The notes beneath the pieces were generated by a model. That model made no database searches and was not told the origin of the DNA. It saw only the letters and a program-made list of their open reading frames with translations. A DNA stretch of 64,000 bases from Corynebacterium glaucum (GTDB taxonomy: Bacteria; Actinomycetota; Actinomycetes; Mycobacteriales; Mycobacteriaceae). The stretch covers positions 558,001-622,000 of the forward strand of contig NZ_CP019688.1 in assembly GCF_002287505.1 (NCBI RefSeq). Reading direction: 5' to 3'. Below, piece by piece: positions 47,140 through 58,641 of the stretch (the stretch's first letter is position 1; each line of letters opens with the position of its first letter). The position numbers were made by a program, and so were the translations under genes.

Positions 47140-47165
47140 GGGTTAAGTAGCAAAATGTGTGTCTG
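47140..47165 (+). repeat. left terminal inverted repeat of the insertion sequence
   Basis: Begins GGGTTAAGTAGCA and ends GTGTGTCTG; 24 of 26 positions match the complement of the right end. Confidence 0.85.
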
Positions 47166-47196
47166 GTCGGTGTGTCGTCGGCTGGGCACACTTTTG

Positions 47197-48411
47197 CTAC
47201 TTGAGGGGTCCTTTTCTGATTCCTATGTTGTGTTGGTATTCGGTTGGGATAGCGTTGTCATAGAAGGCTGGTCGGCCTGTATGTTGGTCGGCTTTGTTTC
47301 GGTCTTCAGGGACAAGATCGGGAACTTTGGCGAGTTGATCTTGCCCGAATGCGCACTGCCTGGCGATCTCTAACGGGTCGTCAGGCAGATGCGTTTTCGA
47401 GTGCAGATACCACTCGAGCATTCTGCGTTGGCGTTCTCCTGATCTGCCGCGGTGGGCGTCGGCGATGCGTTTGAGCTGCGCGTTGACCCCGCCTTCAAGA
47501 CTGTTGGTGGTCGAGGTCCACCGGTTGGGTTCGAGGGCGTTTGGCGGGGGCTGGAGGTAGGTAAACAGCCAGTTGTTGCGCGATAGGTGCAGCAGTGAGT
47601 TATAGGCCTTGCGCACTCGGATGTGGGTGTATTCCCACTGGTGGTTCACGGTGCGGCGTTCTTGGGGCACAGGTGTTTTCTCGTTCAGGAAGCCTTTGTA
47701 GACCACCCCGAAGTCATGCAGTCGCAGTGTCCATTCCCGGGCTTGGTCCAAGGTGGTGATCTTGGTCAGTTTCAACGCCAGTGCGTAGATGGCTTTTCCG
47801 GCATCAGTGCGGGGCCGGGAGGTGGTGTAGCGGCGGATGACACGTTGGGCGTGCACAAGACAGCGCTGGATGAGTGTGGTCGGCCAGCAGGCCTTGATCG
47901 CAGAGTAGGCTCCTTGCCCGCCATCGAGGACAACGCATAACGGTTCAGCGATACCGTGCAGGAGTTGTGTGTAGGCGTGGGTGGTTTCGCTTCTAGCCCA
48001 GTGCCATGCGATGACGTGGTCCCAGCTGGCTGCGACAAGCAGGCAGCCGGCGTCGGTGTGGGTGCCGTCGATGAAGATCTGGTCGTAGACCCGATCAGGG
48101 TCTGGGGTGTTGGGAATGTCGATAAGCCAGAAAGGTTCGAAGCGGCGGTTCAAAGTCCACCTGCTCACACCAGCCTGTCTGGCTACGTCACATAACGGTG
48201 CGGTACCGGTGGCGTAGGCGTGGAATGCGGTGAAGTCGCGGGCTTGGGTCAAATCGGTGCGGCGGCGTGTAAACGAGACTCCGCAGTCTTTGCACCGCCA
48301 CCGAGTGGAGCCTTTGGAGGTGGTGCCGTTTTTCTTCGTTTCCCCACTACATGAGGGGCATCGTGGTCTATTTGGTGTCACCGGGAAAGCACACCAACAC
48401 CCGGCTACCAC
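47197..48411 (-). CDS. IS1249-type (IS256 group) transposase
   Basis: A 404-residue DDE transposase. An N-terminal zinc-ribbon (CPSCSG and CKDCG) and helix-turn-helix (DVARQAGVSRWTLNRRF) precede the catalytic core. Acidic residues occur in QIFIDGTHTDAG, CVVLDGGQGAYSAIK and STTNSLEGGVNAQLKR, the latter being the Glu region of the IS256 family. The frame is unbroken, so the element may be active. A GTG about 10 codons downstream is an alternative start. One copy of the dispersed 10-mer lies inside at 48118-48127. Confidence 0.9.
   Translation of the reverse strand: MVAGCWCAFPVTPNRPRCPSCSGETKKNGTTSKGSTRWRCKDCGVSFTRRRTDLTQARDFTAFHAYATGTAPLCDVARQAGVSRWTLNRRFEPFWLIDIPNTPDPDRVYDQIFIDGTHTDAGCLLVAASWDHVIAWHWARSETTHAYTQLLHGIAEPLCVVLDGGQGAYSAIKACWPTTLIQRCLVHAQRVIRRYTTSRPRTDAGKAIYALALKLTKITTLDQAREWTLRLHDFGVVYKGFLNEKTPVPQERRTVNHQWEYTHIRVRKAYNSLLHLSRNNWLFTYLQPPPNALEPNRWTSTTNSLEGGVNAQLKRIADAHRGRSGERQRRMLEWYLHSKTHLPDDPLEIARQCAFGQDQLAKVPDLVPEDRNKADQHTGRPAFYDNAIPTEYQHNIGIRKGPLK
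48118..48127 (-). repeat. copy of the dispersed 10-mer GCTTATCGAC within the transposase gene
   Basis: Exact core, but the flank (GACATT instead of GACGGC) departs from the extended consensus seen in chromosomal genes, consistent with a chance or foreign copy. Confidence 0.5.
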
Positions 48412-48517
48412 ATGCAGGCGCCATTCCGATGGATTGAACGCGAATCGGGCTCGAATAAGGTACTGACCCTAATTCAAGCCCGATTCATCCAGCCTGATCA
48501 GCGGATACCCGCAAAAT

Positions 48518-48543
48518 CAGACACACTTTCTGCTACTTAACCC
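48518..48543 (-). repeat. right terminal inverted repeat of the insertion sequence
   Basis: Read on the minus strand it begins GGGTTAAGTAGCA and ends GTGTGTCTG, matching the left end with two mismatches. Confidence 0.85.
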
Positions 48544-48893
48544 ACCGATACCGCCAGCCCAAACCTTAGAAAATACTGAGATAGGCAGACGGCCCGGAGT
48601 AGTGATGTAGATCTCGATTCTCTATCTCTGGTGGTAGAGCGTCGTGAACACTTGGAAACGAGTCTGTAGTTCCCGAATAATGCATACCAAATCGCTTTGA
48701 AGCTAGACCAATCAATGATTTGTCCGTACACTGTGGTCGTCGCAGAAAAGCTGTACACATGCTTTTCGATCTTTTCGAGAAATTAGCTTTTCTAAGTGGC
48801 TAAAACTAGTCATTTAGAAGAGCAATCAATTAACTATCCTTTCCTAAATTCAAATTACAACCTTGCCAGTCTCTAAAAGGGGGAGACTCGGAG
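48544..48893. other. 350-bp AT-rich intergenic region before the exopolysaccharide operon
   Basis: No credible gene. The stretch is visibly richer in A and T than the rest of the window (for example AAGAGCAATCAATTAACTAT near 48820) and must contain the operon promoter. AAAGGGGGAG before 48894 is the ribosome binding site. Base composition suggests acquired DNA. The insertion sequence sits at its left border. Confidence 0.6.
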
Positions 48894-49229
48894 ATGACGA
48901 ATATTTTGGTGACCACCAGCCTGACGCTGGAACCGCTGCTGCAGCGCGCGATGCCTGACGTGTCGATGCGCACTTACGCGTCCATTGCGGAGGTTCCGAC
49001 TGAAGCGATTCAGAAGGCCAGTGCCATCGTCTTTGACGAGTCCACCGCCAACTTCATGGAACTCTTCGCGCACAAGGACATTGTTGATCCCTGTGGCAAA
49101 CTTGTGATTCTGACGGAGAAGCGTGCCGCAATGGTTCGCTGCTTCCCGCAGGCAACAGTGTTCTCTTACCCGATTGTTCCGGTCGATATTGCGACAGCGG
49201 TTCGCTACCTGGAGACGATCATTGCTTGA
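48894..49229 (+). CDS. small receiver-like protein opening the exopolysaccharide operon
   Basis: A 111-residue soluble protein of unknown function. Alternating strands and helices (MTNILVTTSLTLEPLLQRAM, KASAIVFDESTANFMELF, GKLVILTEKRAAMVRCF) suggest a receiver-like or other Rossmann-type fold, but no phosphoacceptor pocket is clear. It overlaps the next gene by 8 nt and starts the four-gene operon, so it may be a regulatory or scaffold subunit of the polysaccharide synthase. Confidence 0.55.
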   Translation: MTNILVTTSLTLEPLLQRAMPDVSMRTYASIAEVPTEAIQKASAIVFDESTANFMELFAHKDIVDPCGKLVILTEKRAAMVRCFPQATVFSYPIVPVDIATAVRYLETIIA

Positions 49230-49941
49230 GACCTCACACGTCTTATACGGAGCTACTGTTCTTCTCTTTCTGCTGTTTCTCCTCTGCATATACCTCGTGA
49301 TCAACAATGTGAGGATGCGTAAGAAGGCTAAGCGCAAGGCGGAGTTCCTGACGACGACTCGCGATACTTGGGTCAGCGCCATCCTCGACGGCGAAGAGAC
49401 CGACATCCGTTTGGCGAACACCGAGCAGTCGGAATGGACAACTGACATATTCCTGTCCTACGCAAACAATTACGACGATCCCAACATTCGCTCGAGGGTC
49501 AGTCAGCTTTCGGATGACGTGCTCGCACCCGAGCTTTCGACGAAACTGAATTCGCGCGGTGTTCCAATCCGTCAGTACGCGCTCTTGGTTATCAACCAGT
49601 TGGAGATGACTTCTCTACATAGCGAAGTGGCTGCCCTGCGCCCGCAAACGGATCTCGAGGCCGCTCTCACGTCGCTGATTCTCGAGGGGGAAACCTCGCT
49701 CGCCCCATTCAATTCGGCAGAATCAATGGACCCCACAGATGGTTCGAGTCAGTCGGACTCGATGGCTGAGCTTGCTGAGCTTGAACCAGCGAGGGAATCG
49801 GAACTCGAGCCATGGACCCAGGAAAAACCAACTAAAAACGTTGAGGAGCCGTCGGCGGATAGCAATGTGCTCAATCCCCGGGAACTAGGAACTGGATTTA
49901 CACATCGACCGGTCTGGAGGAGAGGAGAAATCCGTGGTTAA
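49222..49941 (+). CDS. membrane-anchored protein of the exopolysaccharide operon
   Basis: A 239-residue protein with one N-terminal transmembrane helix (ATVLLFLLFLLCIYLVINNV) and a basic stop-transfer (RMRKKAKRKAE). A cytoplasmic helical domain follows that looks HEAT-like (DPNIRSRVSQLSDDVL, IRQYALLVINQLEM), then a low-complexity acidic Glu/Ser/Pro tail. TTG 49222 is used because GGAG lies 8 nt upstream and it restores the membrane anchor. Overlaps both neighbours by 8 nt. Probably an accessory partner of the glycosyltransferase. Confidence 0.6.
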   Translation: MLETSHVLYGATVLLFLLFLLCIYLVINNVRMRKKAKRKAEFLTTTRDTWVSAILDGEETDIRLANTEQSEWTTDIFLSYANNYDDPNIRSRVSQLSDDVLAPELSTKLNSRGVPIRQYALLVINQLEMTSLHSEVAALRPQTDLEAALTSLILEGETSLAPFNSAESMDPTDGSSQSDSMAELAELEPARESELEPWTQEKPTKNVEEPSADSNVLNPRELGTGFTHRPVWRRGEIRG

Positions 49942-51364
49942 CATCAACGGGATTCTTGCCTGGATCGGGTACTTTCTCGCGGCGTACTTGTTGGTTGTGC
50001 TTCTGATCTACTTCGCGATGATGATCTTCGCGGTGTACAAGATCAATCGCAACCGTCGATACGAGCGAACGATGGACCTGTTGAGCAATACCGAGGCTTA
50101 CAACCTGGGAGTCTCAGTCTTGGTTCCGGCGTTCAATGAAGAGCAAGGCATTGTGCAAAACGTTTCGTCGTTGTTGAACCTCAACTACAAGCGCTTTGAA
50201 ATCATCGTGGTGAACGATGGTTCCACCGATGCCACCGCCGACTTGCTCATCAACCAGTTCTTGATGAAACCGGTCCAAAACGTCACGATTGAGCAAAAGT
50301 TGAAGACCGCTGAAGTTGAAAGCATGTATGTCTCCAACTTGTTCCCGAATTTGAAATTGGTGAACAAGCTCAACGGTGGCAAGGCTGACGCACTTAACTG
50401 TGGCATCAACGTCTCCACCATGGAGTACGTCTGCACGGTTGACGGTGATTCGGTCCTGGAGAAGGACTCGATGAAAAAGGTCATGCGACCGTTCGTGCTT
50501 GAGGGCGACCGCGTCGCGGCCGTCGGCGGCACCGTAGAGCTGATCAATGAGAACCGTGTGAACCACGGCGTGGCCGATAAGCAGATTGAATTCTCGCCGA
50601 ACCCTCTCGTTGCGATGCAGACAATCGAGTACTTCCGTTCGTTTTTGATCGGACGTGTTGCACTCAGTGAGCTGAACCTCATGCTCATCTGCTCAGGCGC
50701 GTTCTCCGTGTTCGACAAGGCCATGTTGATCGAGAACGGTGGCCTGGCGCGCAACGTGATCGGTGAAGACATGGAAATCGTCGTGCGTCTGCAGAAGAAC
50801 ATCACGAAGCACAGGCTTAACAAGCTCATCGTGCACGTGCCGGACGCCATCTGCTACACCGAGGCTCCCGAAACGCTGAAGGTGCTTCGCCGCCAACGCC
50901 GGCGGTGGCACCAGGGTCTCCTCGAGAGCTTGACCGCCCACATGGAGGTGTGGTTCAACCCTCGCTTCCGGGCCCTCGGTGTCATTGCCTTTCCGTACTT
51001 CATCATGGTCGAGGCGTTCATCCCGTTCGTGGAGGTGCTCGGCATCGCCTACCTAATCGCCGGTTTCTTCGTCGGGCAGGTGTTTGTCGAATTCTCCTTG
51101 TTCCTTCTAATGCTCTCGCTGATCTACGCCGGTCTAATGAACACCATCTCGGTGATGCTCCACTCCTGGCAGCAAGACAAGTACCCCGATGCTGCAGAGC
51201 TGGCTTATGTGCTCGGACTGTCATTCACCGAGGCATTCTGGTTCAAACCCCTCATGTTGTTCTGGCGTTTGGAAGGTTTCTACCGCTTCTTCACCAAGCG
51301 CAGCGACTGGGGTGTGATGGACCGTCGGGGTTTCAGCGAATCTAAGCCTGAGGTTGTTTCGTGA
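49934..51364 (+). CDS. processive family-2 glycosyltransferase (polysaccharide synthase)
   Basis: A 476-residue GT2 membrane enzyme of the PgaC/hyaluronan/cellulose synthase type. One N-terminal membrane helix is followed by the catalytic domain with VPAFNEEQ, VVNDGSTDAT, VDGDSVLEKD, IGEDMEIVVR and the processivity motif RRQRRRWHQG (QxxRW). Then come at least three C-terminal helices that would form the export channel. The product is probably a beta-linked homopolymer; sugar specificity cannot be read from sequence. GGAGGAGAGGAG precedes GTG 49934. The stop overlaps the next start by 4 nt. Confidence 0.88.
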   Translation: MVNINGILAWIGYFLAAYLLVVLLIYFAMMIFAVYKINRNRRYERTMDLLSNTEAYNLGVSVLVPAFNEEQGIVQNVSSLLNLNYKRFEIIVVNDGSTDATADLLINQFLMKPVQNVTIEQKLKTAEVESMYVSNLFPNLKLVNKLNGGKADALNCGINVSTMEYVCTVDGDSVLEKDSMKKVMRPFVLEGDRVAAVGGTVELINENRVNHGVADKQIEFSPNPLVAMQTIEYFRSFLIGRVALSELNLMLICSGAFSVFDKAMLIENGGLARNVIGEDMEIVVRLQKNITKHRLNKLIVHVPDAICYTEAPETLKVLRRQRRRWHQGLLESLTAHMEVWFNPRFRALGVIAFPYFIMVEAFIPFVEVLGIAYLIAGFFVGQVFVEFSLFLLMLSLIYAGLMNTISVMLHSWQQDKYPDAAELAYVLGLSFTEAFWFKPLMLFWRLEGFYRFFTKRSDWGVMDRRGFSESKPEVVS

Positions 51365-54300
51365 GGAAGCTGTTTTCCTTCATTGCTCTTATTGCCCTAA
51401 TTTTCTTCACCCCGGTGCTGATTTGGGGGGTGAAGAGTGCGCCGTACGATACGTCCCTCGTGTTGGAGAACCGTGTCGGTGAAACGCCGAAGCAGAGCGG
51501 TGCCGCATTCGCACTCGACTACATGAAGGCCAACTCCAAGGTTGCCTCGGTCCAGGACGTGGACTCCACAATGGATGAGCTCAAGGCTTACGACGCTATC
51601 TATGTCACCACCGAGGATGGATTCAGCACTTCGGTGGATCAGTGGAACACCGTGAAGGTCAATATTGACCAAAACTCCCCAACCATCCTGTTCGCGGAGT
51701 ACGGCGTTATCCAAAACACCGAGCCGGGCCCGGTCGCGGGCCAAATCGCCCAAGACCTTGGGGTCGAATCCAGCGGGTGGTCGGGCCTTTTCGTGGAAAA
51801 TCTAGAGAACTATGATTCCGCGATTCCGGATCGTGTGTACGACTACTTCGGCGACAATTGGACGTTCAGTGGACCAGGGCTCGTATTGAATAACGACGTC
51901 GAGAACGTGACTCACGTCGTTGAGATTGACACTGAGGACGATGACCTCGCGCTTGACCTCATCACGACCGATGCCGGGCGCGAGCAGGGTTTCAAGGAAG
52001 CACGCAAGCCTTACTCGGGTTGGTTCGACATCGTCACCCCTGCGGAAGGCACCGATGTGCTCTACACCTTCGACATCCCGCTCAGCGACGAAGTCAAAGA
52101 CAAGTTCGACGAGCTTGATATCCCGGAGACGATTCCCGCGGTGACAAAACACCGCAACGGAGCCTCGCACCGTTTCTACATGGCCGGCACTTTCAGCCAG
52201 TCCGAAGCGATTCCGCTGTTTTACCAGTTCCAGGGTCTGCCACGTCTCTACTCGGTGTTTGACCGCTTCAGCTCGAGCTCGTTCTATTGGAACTCCTACT
52301 TCCCGATCATCTCGCAGGCTATGAAGCTTCACGCTGACTTCAGTGAGGGGCTTGGAGCCGAGTTCGCTGCCGTCGCTAATGAAAATGACGACGACATCCG
52401 CTATCCGGCACGAATGAACTATGACCTCGACCGCATCGAGATCAATGTCGACGGCCAGTGGGAACCCACCCTGGTCAAGGGTGTCAACCTCGGTATGGCG
52501 AGCCCGGGACATTTTCCTGGCGAAGCGGGCATCACCGAAGACGAATACTACGAGTGGTTCAAGATGATCGCGGAGATGAACGCGAACACCATTCGTGTGT
52601 ATACGCTTCACCCGCCAGGCTTCTATCGCGCGCTAGCCAAGTACAACGCGGAGCATGAGAACAAGATTTACGTGTTCCACGGCGTTTGGATTAACGAGGA
52701 GTGGATCACTGGTGATGCCGACGCGTTCCACGAAGAGGCGGTTCAAGGGTTCCGTCAAGAGATTGAGCACGTGGTCGACGCGTTGCACGGCAATGTGATC
52801 GTGGACCACGTTCCGGGACACGCTTCCGGTGTTTACGCGACCGATGTCTCCGACTACGTCATCGGCTGGGTCATTGGTACCGAGTGGGACCCGTTCATGG
52901 TTCAGGGCACCAACCAGAAGCACCAGGACGTCGGGCAGTTCAGCGGCACCTATTACGAGACGAAGGATGCCAACCCGATGGAGTACTGGATCGCTTCGCA
53001 CATGGAGTACGTGACCGATTACGAGATCTCGAACTACAACGAGATCCGCCCGATGAGCTTTACCAACTGGGTGACCACAGACATCTTGCATCACCCCTCC
53101 GACGCCTCCAATAAAGAAGAAATCTCGGAGATCAACCCGAACCACATCTTCACCAAGGGGATCATGGACGAGGTCGGCCAGTTCGCCTCCTACCACGTGT
53201 ACCCGTACTACCCGGACTTCCTGTACCTGGATAAGAAATACCTCAACGCGGTTGATCAGCGTGGGGAGAAGAACACCTATTACGGGTACCTCGATGAGTT
53301 GCGTTCAGTCCACGAGATGCCGGTGCTGGTGGCCGAGTTCGGCGTGCCGGCATCGCGTGGGCGTACCCACACCGGCCCAATGGGCATGCACCAAGGTGGT
53401 GTGAGCGAGGAGGACCAGGGCAAGTACATCCAGCGCATGTTTGAGGACATGTTGGAGACCAATTACATGGGCGGCCTGATCTTCACGTGGCAGGATGAGT
53501 GGTTCAAGCGCACGTGGAACACCATGGATTATGACAACCCTGACCGCCGCCCATACTGGTCGAACCGTCAGACGAGTGAGCAGCAATTCGGCTTGCTCAG
53601 CTTTGATCCGGACAAGATCAAGGTAGACGGGGATGTCAACGAATGGCAGGGCGATCCGCTCTACGTTGGCGACAAGGGTGACCCTATCCAGGCGGCCTAC
53701 GTGGACCACGACGAGGCGTATTTGTACCTGCGCATGGACCTTGACGACGCAGCGTCGTCGACCGGGTACCCGGTGGCGTTGATCGACACCATCCAAGGTC
53801 AGGGCAACAACTACATCAATTCGCTCAATGCGACAAGTGACACCGCGGCTGACTTCCTCGTCTCGTTGGAAGATGACGAGTCCCGCGTGATGGTTGATGC
53901 CAACTACGAGATGCACTCGTACTACTACGGCTGGCTCTACGGCTACATGGACATCAACGATTACATGTTTGATCGCAACTCTGGAGTGTTTCTGCCGATT
54001 AAGTACGTGCTGAATGGACAGATGCGTAACGGTGAAACCGGTGAGATTTACCCGTTCGAAGACTATGAAACGGGTCTCCTCCAAGAGGGTAACGGTAACC
54101 CTGAGGCAAAGGACTTCAACTCCTTAACGGACTACTCGTGGTCCGCCGACCGCAAGCACGTGGAAGTTCGAATTCCGTGGTTGCTGTTGAGTTTCAAGGA
54201 CCCGAGCCGCAAGGAAATCGTCGGTGATTTCGTGACCAAGGAAGACATTCGTGTCAGTGACTTCCTCAAAGACATCGGCTTGAGCTTCATGTACGTCGAA

Positions 54301-54465
54301 TACGACACCCCGGTTCAGGCGCTTCCGACGTCGATCTCTGGCTCTACCGTCGGGTCGATGAAGCGCTACACCTGGGAGAACTGGGACATGGTTGAGGTGC
54401 CGTTCCCGTCGCGTCTAAAGCAGTCCTACTACCACGTGCAGGACTACTTCGCGACCCTGGACTAG
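51361..54465 (+). CDS. 1034-residue secreted glycosidase-like protein with CBM9-like domain
   Basis: A very large extracytoplasmic protein with an N-terminal signal/anchor (LFSFIALIALIFFTPVLIWG). The centre (about residues 380-720) looks like a clan GH-A TIM barrel: KGVNLGMASPGHFPGE, NANTIRVYTLHPPGFYRAL, a candidate acid/base Glu508 in IGTEWDPF, and a candidate nucleophile Glu659 in VLVAEFGVPASRGR. From about residue 755 a CBM9/DOMON-like domain follows (KIKVDGDVNEWQGDPLYV). It is translationally coupled to the synthase gene, so it probably trims, transfers or releases the nascent polysaccharide. Family assignment is by pattern only. Confidence 0.65.
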   Translation: MRKLFSFIALIALIFFTPVLIWGVKSAPYDTSLVLENRVGETPKQSGAAFALDYMKANSKVASVQDVDSTMDELKAYDAIYVTTEDGFSTSVDQWNTVKVNIDQNSPTILFAEYGVIQNTEPGPVAGQIAQDLGVESSGWSGLFVENLENYDSAIPDRVYDYFGDNWTFSGPGLVLNNDVENVTHVVEIDTEDDDLALDLITTDAGREQGFKEARKPYSGWFDIVTPAEGTDVLYTFDIPLSDEVKDKFDELDIPETIPAVTKHRNGASHRFYMAGTFSQSEAIPLFYQFQGLPRLYSVFDRFSSSSFYWNSYFPIISQAMKLHADFSEGLGAEFAAVANENDDDIRYPARMNYDLDRIEINVDGQWEPTLVKGVNLGMASPGHFPGEAGITEDEYYEWFKMIAEMNANTIRVYTLHPPGFYRALAKYNAEHENKIYVFHGVWINEEWITGDADAFHEEAVQGFRQEIEHVVDALHGNVIVDHVPGHASGVYATDVSDYVIGWVIGTEWDPFMVQGTNQKHQDVGQFSGTYYETKDANPMEYWIASHMEYVTDYEISNYNEIRPMSFTNWVTTDILHHPSDASNKEEISEINPNHIFTKGIMDEVGQFASYHVYPYYPDFLYLDKKYLNAVDQRGEKNTYYGYLDELRSVHEMPVLVAEFGVPASRGRTHTGPMGMHQGGVSEEDQGKYIQRMFEDMLETNYMGGLIFTWQDEWFKRTWNTMDYDNPDRRPYWSNRQTSEQQFGLLSFDPDKIKVDGDVNEWQGDPLYVGDKGDPIQAAYVDHDEAYLYLRMDLDDAASSTGYPVALIDTIQGQGNNYINSLNATSDTAADFLVSLEDDESRVMVDANYEMHSYYYGWLYGYMDINDYMFDRNSGVFLPIKYVLNGQMRNGETGEIYPFEDYETGLLQEGNGNPEAKDFNSLTDYSWSADRKHVEVRIPWLLLSFKDPSRKEIVGDFVTKEDIRVSDFLKDIGLSFMYVEYDTPVQALPTSISGSTVGSMKRYTWENWDMVEVPFPSRLKQSYYHVQDYFATLD

Positions 54466-55635: not shown

Positions 55636-55905
55636 ATGGCGTGACAACGCCAACTGCAGTCAGATCCCCTGATCTTTTGGTCGGCGCTGGGCTTCATCAT
55701 CGCCTTCGTCACCGCGACTCTTGCCTTCGGCGACAGGGCCCGGAAAGCCTACTCAGAGATCTCCGGCTGGTTGATGGAGAACCTGACCTGGATGTACATC
55801 GGCGGCATCTCGGCAGTGTTCATTTTTCTCATCGTCGTGTTCGTGTCTCGTTACGGCAACCTGCGCTTGGGTGATGACGACGACGAACCCGACGTACGCT
55901 GCTGA
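55636..55905 (+). pseudogene. N-terminal fragment of a BCCT-family transporter
   Basis: From about 55657 one frame reads SDPLIFWSALGFIIAFVTAT, later ENLTWMYIGGISAVFIFLIV and SRYGNLRLGDDDDEP. This matches the first two helices and the following acidic loop of betaine/carnitine/choline (BCCT) carriers. The ATG at 55636 is followed in frame by GCG TGA, and after about 80 residues the frame ends at TGA 55903-55905. The remaining ten helices are absent, so this is a relic truncated by recombination with the adjacent ATP-grasp sequence. Confidence 0.75.
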
Positions 55906-56350
55906 CCAGCGACCGCATCTACCGGTTGTCGTGAAGCCGCGCGTGAGCCGCGGTGGCCGCGGTGTGGAGGTGGTGGAAACCCAGGATCGCTTCACAGAGA
56001 TCACCGATCCCGGGTTGATCGTGCAAGAGTTCGCCCCTGGCGAGGAGTTCTGCCCCCAGTTGTTCATCAGTCCCACCACCGGTGAGACCGAAGTCGTCGT
56101 GCTCCACAAAACTGCGATGAAGGAAGGCCGGGTTGGCAACGCGGCCGCGGTGGAGCGAGCTACGGACCAAGCTGTCGCTGACCTCGCTCGCGAAACCGCC
56201 AGCGCTATCGGCTTGACCGGTCCGCTGGATATGGATATCCGCTACACGGAAGCCGGTAGGCCAGTACTGCTGGAGGTCAACGCGCGATTTGGAGCCAATT
56301 CGGAGCACGCCCCGGAGATCCTCGCTGCGTTCCTTGAGGAGGTAGCGTGA
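55871..56350 (+). pseudogene. truncated ATP-grasp protein (C-terminal half)
   Basis: A 159-residue frame in which only the second half of an ATP-grasp domain is recognisable: LPVVVKPRVSRGGRGVEVVE, LIVQEFAPGEEFC, and the metal-binding MDIRYTEAGRPVLLEVNARFG. Intact ATP-grasp ligases are about 300 residues. The pre-ATP-grasp domain is missing, and the start codon is supplied out of frame by the BCCT fragment. It may still be translated because it is coupled to the next gene (stop 56350, GTG 56352), but ligase activity is unlikely. Confidence 0.7.
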
Positions 56351-56351
56351 C

Positions 56352-57662
56352 GTGGCGTTTCTAGTGTTCACCATGGCGCTGCTGGTCATGCGTGTTCTGT
56401 TCGTCCCGCTTGCGCTCATCTTCGAATACCGCGCCGCGCGGCGGCGCGCCGCTGGCACGCCCACTGCGCTCGACCGGCAGCCGCTGGTGTCCGTGGTGGT
56501 ACCCGCGTACAACGAAGAGACTGTCCTGAAGTCATGCGTGACCTCAATCGTTGGTTCCGGTTACCCGAACCTCGAAGTCATCGTCGTCGACGACGGTTCC
56601 TCCGATGACACGCGGCGCATCGCTCAGGAACTAGAGTCTCGCCACCCGCAGATGCGCTACATCTACCAAGAAAACGCTGGCAAAGGCGCGGCGCTGAACC
56701 ACGGCTACCGCGAGTCCAGGGGCGAATTTCTCCTCTTCATTGACGCAGACTCCGTATTCACGCCTGACACGGTTCCTGCCATGCTGCGCGCGTTCTATGT
56801 AGATGACATCGGTGCTGTGTGTGGAGACGACCGTCCCGTGAACTTGAACCGGGTGCTCACGCGGTTCCTCGCACTGATCACCCACGTCGGTACAGGTCTT
56901 GTACGGCGCGCCTTCGACCTGCTTGGAGTTGTGCCGGTCGTTTCTGGCAACTCGGGTGCATTCCGCCGCGCTTGCCTGGATGATGTCGCCCGCGCGACCC
57001 CTGGGCGGCCGTTGCGAGAAGACACGGTCGGTGAGGACTTAGAGCTCACGTGGCACATCCACACCACCCCGTGGAGAGTTGTGTTCGCGCCGGAGGCCCT
57101 TGTCTATGCGGAATCCCCTTCGTCCCTCAAGGCGCTATATAAGCAGCGCACCCGCTGGGCCCGTGGGCTGCTGCAAAGCCTGCAGATCTACTGGCCGTTG
57201 ATGTTCAGACCCTCCAACCCTGCGTTTACCGGCCTGTTGTGGTTCACCGTGATCACCATGGTGTTCTTCCCGGTGCTGCAGATTGGTCTGTTCATCGCAA
57301 TGCTTGTAAGCCTGCCCAACGCCAACTTCACTGCGTGGGGCCTCTTGCTCGGTTCCGGGCTGCTGTTGTCAACCGTGCTGCTCATCATCACCATGGTGAT
57401 CGCCAACGCGCTGGGCGACCTTCGCCATATCTGGGCGCTGCCACTGTGGCCAATTTACTCCCTGGCCATGTCGTTCACCATGCTCAACGCGATGTGGCAG
57501 GAGCTGACCCGATCCGAGTTGAAGTGGAACAAACCAGAACGAACAGGAGTGATCTCCTTTGAGGAGCAACTTGGATTGGAAGCTGGCGCTGATAGCAGCG
57601 GCCGTTCCGCTGATCGCATTTCTGCTGATCAATTTGATGCAGCAGCCCAGCCGCGGGGTTAA
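56352..57662 (+). CDS. family-2 glycosyltransferase, second polysaccharide locus
   Basis: A 436-residue membrane GT2 with VSVVVPAYNEETVL, VVDDGSSDDTRR, LFIDADSVFTPD, GEDLELTWHI and the processivity motif KQRTRWARGLLQ. One hydrophobic segment precedes the catalytic domain, and two or three helices follow (LLWFTVITMVFFPVLQIGLF, LLLGSGLLLSTVLLIITMV). It differs from the GT2 at 49934 and belongs to a separate unit. GAGGAGG precedes GTG 56352. Its last 104 nt overlap the next gene, an unusually long overlap. Confidence 0.85.
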   Translation: MAFLVFTMALLVMRVLFVPLALIFEYRAARRRAAGTPTALDRQPLVSVVVPAYNEETVLKSCVTSIVGSGYPNLEVIVVDDGSSDDTRRIAQELESRHPQMRYIYQENAGKGAALNHGYRESRGEFLLFIDADSVFTPDTVPAMLRAFYVDDIGAVCGDDRPVNLNRVLTRFLALITHVGTGLVRRAFDLLGVVPVVSGNSGAFRRACLDDVARATPGRPLREDTVGEDLELTWHIHTTPWRVVFAPEALVYAESPSSLKALYKQRTRWARGLLQSLQIYWPLMFRPSNPAFTGLLWFTVITMVFFPVLQIGLFIAMLVSLPNANFTAWGLLLGSGLLLSTVLLIITMVIANALGDLRHIWALPLWPIYSLAMSFTMLNAMWQELTRSELKWNKPERTGVISFEEQLGLEAGADSSGRSADRISADQFDAAAQPRG

Positions 57663-58641
57663 ACCCGCGTCCCTTACGGTGGGCATCGGCTACGAGTCAG
57701 TCAGTTCCGACGAGGTTGATTGGCCAGAAATCCGTGAGCGCCTCGATCGGGCCGGTGTCGACGCCGTGAACGTCTCAGTCGGCCGCGCCGACTTCATCGG
57801 CTTCCCAGCCGAAGGTGAACAGGAGTACTGGGCCTCAGGGGTAGAGCAGGGCCAAGACCGTGTGGGGGAGATCCTACGCACGTTGCAGGAATCCAGCGAT
57901 CGGCGCGTTGGACTCACCGTCGATGTGCTTGCGCCCCGTATCGTTGAGCAAGACGATGACTATAAGGCAGTCTTTGCCGACGGGAAGCCCGCCGAGGATT
58001 TTCCGTCCGCGGTTGCGCTGCACCGCGGCGAAGTTGGCAACCGGGTCGTGGAAATGTGCGGCGCGGCAGCCACCAGATATTCACCCGACTACATCGTACT
58101 CACGGAACTGATCGGAGATGCGTTCTTCTCCGAAGCAGATGAGCAGCTGTACCGAGACATGACCGGTCGGGACGGCTTTCCGCGCGACGCGGAGGGAAAC
58201 ATCCAGATCGCTGACGGCACGCTCAACGACTGGCAATCCGACATCATCGTCGGGGTCATTGAGCGTTGCCGCGACGCAGCGGACCTCCAAGTCGAGATGG
58301 ACGCGCGCGTGAACTTCGACGAGCCAGGTTCGAACCGTTTTGAATCGGGCCACCGCTACGAAGACATCCTCGCGACCGGCGCAGACCTTTCGCTGTGGGC
58401 GTACACCGCCTTGGCAGACCAGTCCCCGGATGCGATCAGAGACGTCGCCAAGGGACTCAACGAGCGATTCAGCCCCGAGGAGCTTCAGCGCATCACCATT
58501 GCTGTGGGGCTGTGGGGCGACCTCTCCAACCGTGAGGTCGAGACGTCGCTGCGATCAGGGGAGGGGCTATCGATGGCGCTGACGCCACTGTCGAAGATGA
58601 GCAAGCGCCACTGGGAGATCCTCGAAGAGCTCAACCAGTAG
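57559..58641 (+). CDS. membrane-anchored glycosidase-like protein, unknown family
   Basis: A 360-residue protein with an N-terminal anchor (LALIAAAVPLIAFLLINLM). An extracytoplasmic domain follows whose segments VDAVNVSVGRADFIGFPA, GLTVDVLAPRIVEQ and YIVLTELIGDAFFSEADEQL suggest a TIM-barrel hydrolase such as the C-terminal part of PgaB. This is inference from pattern only. TTG 57559 is chosen because AGGAG lies 9 nt upstream and the membrane helix needs it. With the preceding GT2 it makes a synthase/hydrolase pair like the larger operon on the other side of thiF. Confidence 0.5.
   Translation: MRSNLDWKLALIAAAVPLIAFLLINLMQQPSRGVKPASLTVGIGYESVSSDEVDWPEIRERLDRAGVDAVNVSVGRADFIGFPAEGEQEYWASGVEQGQDRVGEILRTLQESSDRRVGLTVDVLAPRIVEQDDDYKAVFADGKPAEDFPSAVALHRGEVGNRVVEMCGAAATRYSPDYIVLTELIGDAFFSEADEQLYRDMTGRDGFPRDAEGNIQIADGTLNDWQSDIIVGVIERCRDAADLQVEMDARVNFDEPGSNRFESGHRYEDILATGADLSLWAYTALADQSPDAIRDVAKGLNERFSPEELQRITIAVGLWGDLSNREVETSLRSGEGLSMALTPLSKMSKRHWEILEELNQ

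Follow-up and report, generated by a model that had tools for sequence, protein, structure and literature searches.

A four-gene operon of Bacillota type, predicted to direct a synthase-dependent exopolysaccharide, in Corynebacterium glaucum

Here we describe a four-gene operon of Corynebacterium glaucum that is predicted to direct formation of a synthase-dependent exopolysaccharide. It lies in a window of 64,000 nucleotides (nt), the whole stretch analysed (bases 558001-622000 of the single 2.52-Mb contig), to which all positions below refer. Four plus-strand open reading frames (ORFs) lie within 48894-54465 with successive overlaps of 8, 8 and 4 nt, as the initial annotation of this DNA had described. 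Gene 1 (48894-49229, ATG start) encodes a stand-alone receiver-fold protein of 111 residues, probably a pseudo-receiver. Gene 2 (49222-49941, TTG start; the longest listed ORF begins at 49123) encodes a reduced HEAT-family membrane protein, and gene 3 (49934-51364, GTG start, 476 residues) a processive family-2 glycosyltransferase (GT2), the putative synthase. Gene 4 (51361-54465, GTG start, 1034 residues) encodes a predicted extracytoplasmic glycosidase resembling clan GH-A of the glycoside hydrolases (GH).

A scan of named genomes for relatives of the gene 4 hydrolase returned at least 567 related stretches, and the best 80 loci, leaning to close relatives, were kept (78 from Bacillota and two from Corynebacterium). 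A HEAT>GT2 tandem shares the locus with the hydrolase in 70 of the 80, and 46 of these are collinear with the window (HEAT, GT2, hydrolase). The other 24 have the tandem with the hydrolase elsewhere in the locus order (16 on the opposite strand, eight on the same strand). The hydrolase stands alone in nine loci, in each case with a HEAT-family gene elsewhere in the genome (9/9), and one locus (L011) is at a contig edge. Relatives of gene 4 are present in two of 301 genomes of the family and six of 242 genomes of the genus, and a separately run HEAT profile search found the same six. Linkage of the genes in other genomes, the absence of which had been named beforehand as grounds for abandoning the proposal, was thus found both among the kept loci and within the genus, and the linkage and co-occurrence are strong evidence that the genes form one functional unit. 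One of the six assemblies (G363) has the operon divided between two contigs, one carrying genes 1 and 2 with the beginning of the GT2 gene and the other the remainder. Three plasmid records contain distant relatives, none covering 80% of the query. Genes 2 and 4 had no match in PHROGs, phage and viral collections being outside the search.

Gene 3 matches the GT2 family in Pfam (3.9e-22) and has a QxxRW motif at residues 321-325, one N-terminal hydrophobic segment and several C-terminal ones, which bears out its annotation as a processive enzyme. In an alignment of GT2s longer than 400 residues that adjoin a HEAT gene, D95, D170xD172, E278-D279 and Q321xxR324-W325 are invariant in all 73 sequences, that of the window included. 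The best NCBIfam model is PgaC_IcaA (TIGR03937; 9.1e-39, 133.6 bits versus a cut-off of 422.3), and the cellulose synthase CelA model (TIGR03030) gives 43.8 bits versus a cut-off of 699.1, in agreement with the earlier view that the set matches neither the pga/ica nor the cellulose system. Gene 3 is distantly related to PgaC/IcaA and to XrtG-associated enzymes, far under the curated cut-offs. No Alg8- or Alg44-type name occurs among 25 of the 27 NCBIfam matches of gene 3, and no search was aimed at alginate systems. The solved relatives of the GT2 profile include chondroitin, cellulose, heparosan and hyaluronan synthases as well as other GT2 enzymes, at 31-68 bits.

The gene 4 product was modelled with AlphaFold2 (AF2) from an alignment of 42 of the 81 hydrolase sequences (the 80 kept loci and the window), with a mean predicted local distance difference test score (pLDDT) of 86.8 and a predicted template-modelling score (pTM) of 0.88. 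The model consists of an N-terminal anchor (hydrophobic segment at residues 4-22), an alpha/beta domain (~30-340), a barrel (~350-720) and a strand-rich C-terminal region (~776-1003). The nearest fold is that of GH157 (Z 28.7 over 305 residues, root-mean-square deviation 2.7, 14% identity), followed by GH2 enzymes with Z near 25; folds of GH5, another family of clan GH-A, come further down among the Foldseek matches. The Foldseek matches also include the small cytoplasmic proteins 2gk3 and 3soz, which are suspected to fit the N-terminal domain (the aligned range is absent from the output). In clan GH-A the acid/base Glu follows strand 4 and the nucleophile Glu is at strand 7. In the predicted model E508 follows strand 500-506 and E659 lies within strand 655-660, so that the residue pair named in the initial annotation stands. 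Gene 4 is accordingly placed, as a model-based prediction, among clan GH-A-like glycosidases, with E508 as the candidate acid/base and E659 as the candidate nucleophile.

Both residues are nearly invariant among homologues (Glu at the position of E508 in 83 of 85 and of E659 in 84 of 85), and the hydrolases encoded in the window, in L011 and in L012 (Corynebacterium sp. 122RC1) retain them. The exceptions at E508 are the second copy in Paenibacillus cellulosilyticus, which has Asp, and the relative in Planococcus maritimus, which has Thr and Ser at the two Glu sites. Gene 4 has a match to GH113 (PF22612) over residues 643-715, spanning E659, at 20.2 bits versus a cut-off of 27; the same model scores 16.8 bits in L021 and 20.2 bits in L037, and seven of the 42 members match at E <=0.01. 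A sequence search of the PDB with the hydrolase family profile gave no match at E 0.1. The C-terminal domain had been called CBM9-like; Pfam CBM9 has no match in the 42 hydrolase members at E 0.01, the model shows a strand-rich C-terminal region, and a CBM9-like domain there is a possibility.

Several loci show variations on the hydrolase gene. In P. cellulosilyticus (L007 7803-13116) two tandem hydrolase copies precede the HEAT and GT2 genes, and the second, with Asp at the E508 position, may be non-catalytic. On a P. maritimus plasmid (L009 3030-11384), genes for a TIM-barrel-like protein, VTC, DUF4956 and CotH are followed by the hydrolase relative, HEAT and GT2 genes; lacking both catalytic Glu residues, this relative is possibly a non-hydrolytic version. 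L036 and L084 have an ORF of ~280 residues between the GT2 gene and a shorter hydrolase gene, perhaps a separate gene for the N-terminal domain or the product of a frameshift. The hydrolase of Deinococcus radiophilus has an N-terminal tetratricopeptide repeat (TPR) region.

Gene 2 is related to the HEAT family (E 6.7e-23 against an iterated profile), with the match confined to profile positions 8-148 of 349; four other corynebacterial copies tested behave alike. With a second profile (A8), built from 22 of 69 eligible HEAT sequences plus the window and therefore containing the window's own row, the two copies from the window's species match to position 273 of 348 and the other four corynebacterial copies to 138-147. 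A single N-terminal transmembrane segment is formed by residues 9-27, the helical N-terminal part of the family is retained, and a polar C-terminal tail stands in place of the HEAT repeats. Pfam finds no HEAT match in gene 2 of the window, and finds HEAT_2 at residues 239-311 of a Bacillota protein in L060. Judged by these profiles, the repeat region of gene 2 is missing or unrecognisable. Of the earlier description as a membrane-anchored HEAT-like protein, the family membership and the anchor are retained, but the part that would bear the repeats is not there.

Gene 1 was likewise modelled by AF2 (from two sequences; pLDDT 78.8, pTM 0.76), giving an alternating beta/alpha receiver fold that matches receiver domains with Z up to 12.3, as expected from its earlier description as receiver-like. 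Among the 50 listed VIA-align matches, 49 are receiver or response-regulator entries, the exception being USP11 at rank 27; the top Foldseek match of the model is CENP-M. The protein lacks the receiver acid pair and the conserved Lys. D48-E49 is kept in all five gene 1 sequences, with D48 roughly at the acceptor position, and D48 may have some acceptor function. Gene 1 probably encodes a pseudo-receiver. It occupies the slot of the Bacillota response-regulator gene, directly before the HEAT gene, and is present in five of the six operon-bearing genomes of the genus: that of the window, G349 (L098), G268 (L012), G329 (L095) and G363 (L114).

The genes upstream of the HEAT gene were compared across the loci, taking as upstream gene the longest same-strand ORF from -150 to +200 nt of the HEAT match (single cases may be wrong) and excluding L007, L008, L009 and L037, where the upstream gene is the hydrolase. 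The 67 upstream genes fall into products of at least 500 residues (23), 400-499 residues (three), 200-399 residues (34) and fewer than 200 residues (seven, including gene 1 of the window and that of L012). In the longest class a GG[DE][ED]F motif is present in 19 of 23 proteins, and a C-terminal receiver acceptor Asp in all 23. The motif is lacking in the proteins of 200-399 and 400-499 residues. Of 42 shorter forms that were aligned, 27 have Asn and 12 have Asp at the acceptor position. The receiver of the middle class is homologous to that of the long class (E 1e-41), and its N-terminal part is a degenerate GGDEF domain (hhalign E 1e-14, in one comparison of 33 versus 23 sequences). The long regulator of L081 has a REC-GGDEF-REC arrangement (REC, receiver domain) and begins with an Hpt-like region (22.5 bits for Hpt, cut-off 24.6); downstream of the hydrolase come genes for a CheY-like receiver and for a hybrid histidine kinase. 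ORF pairs with the sizes and similarity cluster of the L081 pair occur in 20 of the 80 loci, domains having been scanned for the L081 pair only. The first gene in Bacillota usually encodes a signalling protein with a receiver and an intact or degenerate GGDEF domain. In the genome of the window, GGDEF (PF00990) and PilZ (PF07238) have no matches, while control genomes were positive for GGDEF in 8 of 14 (Corynebacterium glutamicum among them) and for PilZ in 5 of 14.

A working scheme can be proposed from these assignments. Going by its motifs and its kinship to processive GT2s, gene 3 would polymerise a sugar nucleotide on the cytoplasmic side and thread the chain through helices of its own in the membrane. 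On the outer side, the anchored gene 4 product would bind the emerging polymer and cut or trim it, presumably by a retaining GH-A mechanism with E508 and E659. The HEAT protein is a likely adaptor between signal and synthase, because the gene directly ahead of the HEAT gene, itself preceding the synthase gene, mostly encodes a REC or REC/GGDEF regulator in Bacillota. Genes 1 and 2 would then be the remains of a control module. Because the receiver is without the acid pair and Lys needed for normal phosphorylation and the adaptor is without HEAT repeats, the Corynebacterium synthase probably runs constitutively, depends on transcriptional control, or is held by a pseudo-receiver that acts as a structural subunit.

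We consider it probable that this is a synthase-dependent exopolysaccharide operon of Bacillota type that belongs to none of the named families tested, has a control module in decay and is present in few Corynebacterium species. The linkage, the GT2 motifs, the conservation of the two Glu residues, the GH-A fold, the series of regulators and the lack of GGDEF and PilZ in the genome itself all count in favour, as do the accessory genes of P. maritimus, the TPRs of D. radiophilus and the nesting of the hydrolases in the tree described below.

Other observations weigh against this interpretation. The polymer and its sugar cannot be named, because the matches to solved synthases are only moderate, and the top-listed matches in the open-access literature give neither sugar nor phenotype nor enzyme data on any member. 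The hydrolase gene is on the other strand in 16 of the 80 loci and elsewhere in nine, and so does not always share a transcript with the other genes. Position and fold are all that connects gene 1 with the Bacillota receivers: the profile link between them is not significant (hhalign E 0.05-0.45, including the fifth gene 1 sequence), and its descent from these receivers is inferred. In addition, G400 retains genes 2-4 with no gene 1 seen, and the GGDEF match in C. glutamicum means that the genus is not wholly GGDEF-free.

It is possible, if doubtful, that the receiver is a physical subunit of the synthase, such that the REC or REC-GGDEF protein docks on a membrane HEAT protein that directly gates the GT2, and was kept as a structural pseudo-receiver subunit in lineages that have lost phosphorylation and c-di-GMP input. 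Synthases are known to be controlled in PilZ-, PelD- and IcaD-type modes; if the proposal is true, this would be a mode distinct from these, with stages of its decay still present in living species.

Other explanations would give the same genes a different role. Some retaining GH-A enzymes are transglycosylases, and the GT2 might make a wall-attached or lipid-linked glycan that the anchored GH-A protein moves to the wall. The N-terminal hydrophobic segment of gene 4 may indeed serve as an anchor, and the Gel4 transglycosylase is among its Foldseek matches (8pe1, rank 40); we nevertheless think this unlikely, given that all 73 synthases compared have the QxxRW motif of processive enzymes and that the Planococcus neighbourhood has accessory genes in common with pel loci, although gene 4 may have some transglycosylase activity. 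The operon could also be a divergent system for poly-N-acetylglucosamine (PNAG; pga/ica), as PgaC_IcaA is the best NCBIfam model of the GT2, but its 133.6 bits are a third of the cut-off (422.3) and the other three proteins have no Pfam or NCBIfam match pointing to pga/ica, which makes this the least credible of the alternatives and very improbable.

An operon in decay, with control genes eroded and catalytic genes going, is a further explanation, and the missing receiver residues and HEAT repeats, the unseen gene 1 of G400 and the restriction of the hydrolase to just six of 242 genomes would all fit such a relic. Against it, the hydrolase is free of internal stops in all six genomes, the GT2 is full length in the five where no contig end splits the gene, and the two same-species hydrolases are 99% identical. 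Catalytic residues are also intact, as seen for the hydrolase in the window, L011 and L012 and for the GT2 in the window and L012. A relic in decay is thus improbable, and an exopolysaccharide operon with a decayed control module is the reading we retain.

In a tree of 87 hydrolase rows, the five corynebacterial sequences group as a single clade within Bacillota (SH-aLRT 100, stem 0.68), with Jeotgalibaca caeni as its neighbour (SH-aLRT 97). The tree was made by a quick method with Shimodaira-Hasegawa-like approximate likelihood ratio test (SH-aLRT) support only, includes the window's species once and places the plasmid rows on very long branches. Horizontal acquisition, already suggested by the initial annotation, is supported because of this nesting and the patchy spread, but the composition argument originally given for it is weak. 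The G+C content (GC) of the operon is indeed lower than that of its surroundings (0.54-0.56 versus a weighted mean of 0.638 for the 47 other long ORFs in the window), and the DNA directly upstream is AT-rich as stated (48697-48893, 39% GC). The deficit is, however, mainly at codon positions 1 and 2, and third-position GC is ordinary in genes 3 (0.77) and 4 (0.76) against a weighted mean of 0.742 for the other genes. A recent acquisition deduced from composition was rejected on these grounds. The operon was likely acquired from Bacillota-like bacteria, as judged from the sequences, and the ordinary third-position GC of genes 3 and 4 suggests that the transfer is not recent; the somewhat low values of gene 1 (0.69) and gene 2 (0.62) fit an old transfer less well. 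In G400 (L097), as in the species of the window, the operon lies close to a moeZ-like gene; in G329 (L095) it has another location.

Upstream of gene 1 lies an AT-rich leader (48544-48893, plus strand), a possible promoter region, which is common to a same-species genome without the adjoining insertion sequence (IS) copy (97% identity to L098 across window 48544-49000). Promoter-like and terminator-like sites in the region were no more frequent than in shuffled sequences. The adjoining element is of IS1249 type (47140-48543), is bounded by 26-nt terminal inverted repeats and has its transposase gene on the minus strand (47197-48411, NCBIfam 505.7 bits). The same-species genome G349 lacks it at this site and has there an 8-nt stretch that corresponds to both borders, an apparent 8-nt target duplication. 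As G349 (L098) has the operon in the same place with no IS, the element was rejected as the vehicle of the operon and is, from this comparison, a separate, later insertion. Lying ~350 nt upstream, it may affect expression of the operon.

Downstream, at 55871-58641, is a second GT2 unit comprising a partial ATP-grasp protein (159 residues, Pfam 1.6e-12), a PgaC-like GT2 (56352-57662, below the cut-off at 183.9 bits) and a membrane-anchored protein of 360 residues. The last has no convincing family match, is loosely reminiscent of a GH153/PgaB-type barrel (putative), and is present in 16 of 242 genomes of the genus. At ~55645-55905, running into the ATP-grasp fragment, is an N-terminal remnant of a membrane-protein gene, which by eye we take to be like a BCCT transporter. 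A similar gene appears, again by eye, intact beside the moeZ-like gene in G400 (L097 15881-17656), and the second unit may have landed in or next to this membrane-protein gene.

Taken at the level of sequence, the operon is a reduced version of a system common in Bacillota, and the top-listed matches in the open-access literature contain no description of such an operon. The operon would extend the Gram-positive list by one more synthase-dependent polymer, and its glycosidase family, outside Pfam, is a possible matrix-cutting tool. The graded series from motif-bearing GGDEF through degenerate GGDEF and receiver alone to pseudo-receiver would offer a testbed for the coupling of signalling to a synthase.

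Neither the PNAG nor the cellulose system takes in the operon, whose synthase has its own partners, conserved in many Bacillota. With the PNAG systems (pgaABCD/icaADBC) it has in common a GT2 distantly akin to PgaC/IcaA and an extracytoplasmic protein possibly acting on the polymer; it differs in a GT2 far below the family cut-off, in a GH-A-like protein and in having no other match to a pga/ica partner, and none of its four proteins matches a polysaccharide deacetylase (PgaB/IcaB) in Pfam or NCBIfam. With the cellulose systems (bcs and clostridial ccs) it shares a processive GT2 synthase and a glycosidase encoded in the operon, but its GT2 reaches 43.8 of the 699.1 bits set for CelA, and the only Pfam match of its glycosidase is the sub-threshold one to GH113.

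Compared with Gram-positive Pel (pelDEADAFG), the window encodes a QxxRW GT2, a HEAT-family protein and a GH-A-like protein in place of the familiar classes of Pel proteins. The resemblance lies in the control part, which according to the Pel study (PMC7112168) has a degenerate GGDEF domain in some lineages and has lost it in others. The same study reports genes for CotH, a polyphosphate polymerase (VTC) and DUF4956 beside the pel clusters of streptococci, clostridia and bifidobacteria (PMC7112168). This accessory set also adjoins the module in P. maritimus, where the divergent copy follows the VTC, DUF4956 and CotH genes, the sole such case among the loci compared. The glycosidase itself has the barrel fold of GH157 and a weak sequence match to GH113 that includes E659, but is set apart from both by its low identity to GH157 (14%), its score below the GH113 cut-off, its extra N- and C-terminal domains and its linkage to a synthase.

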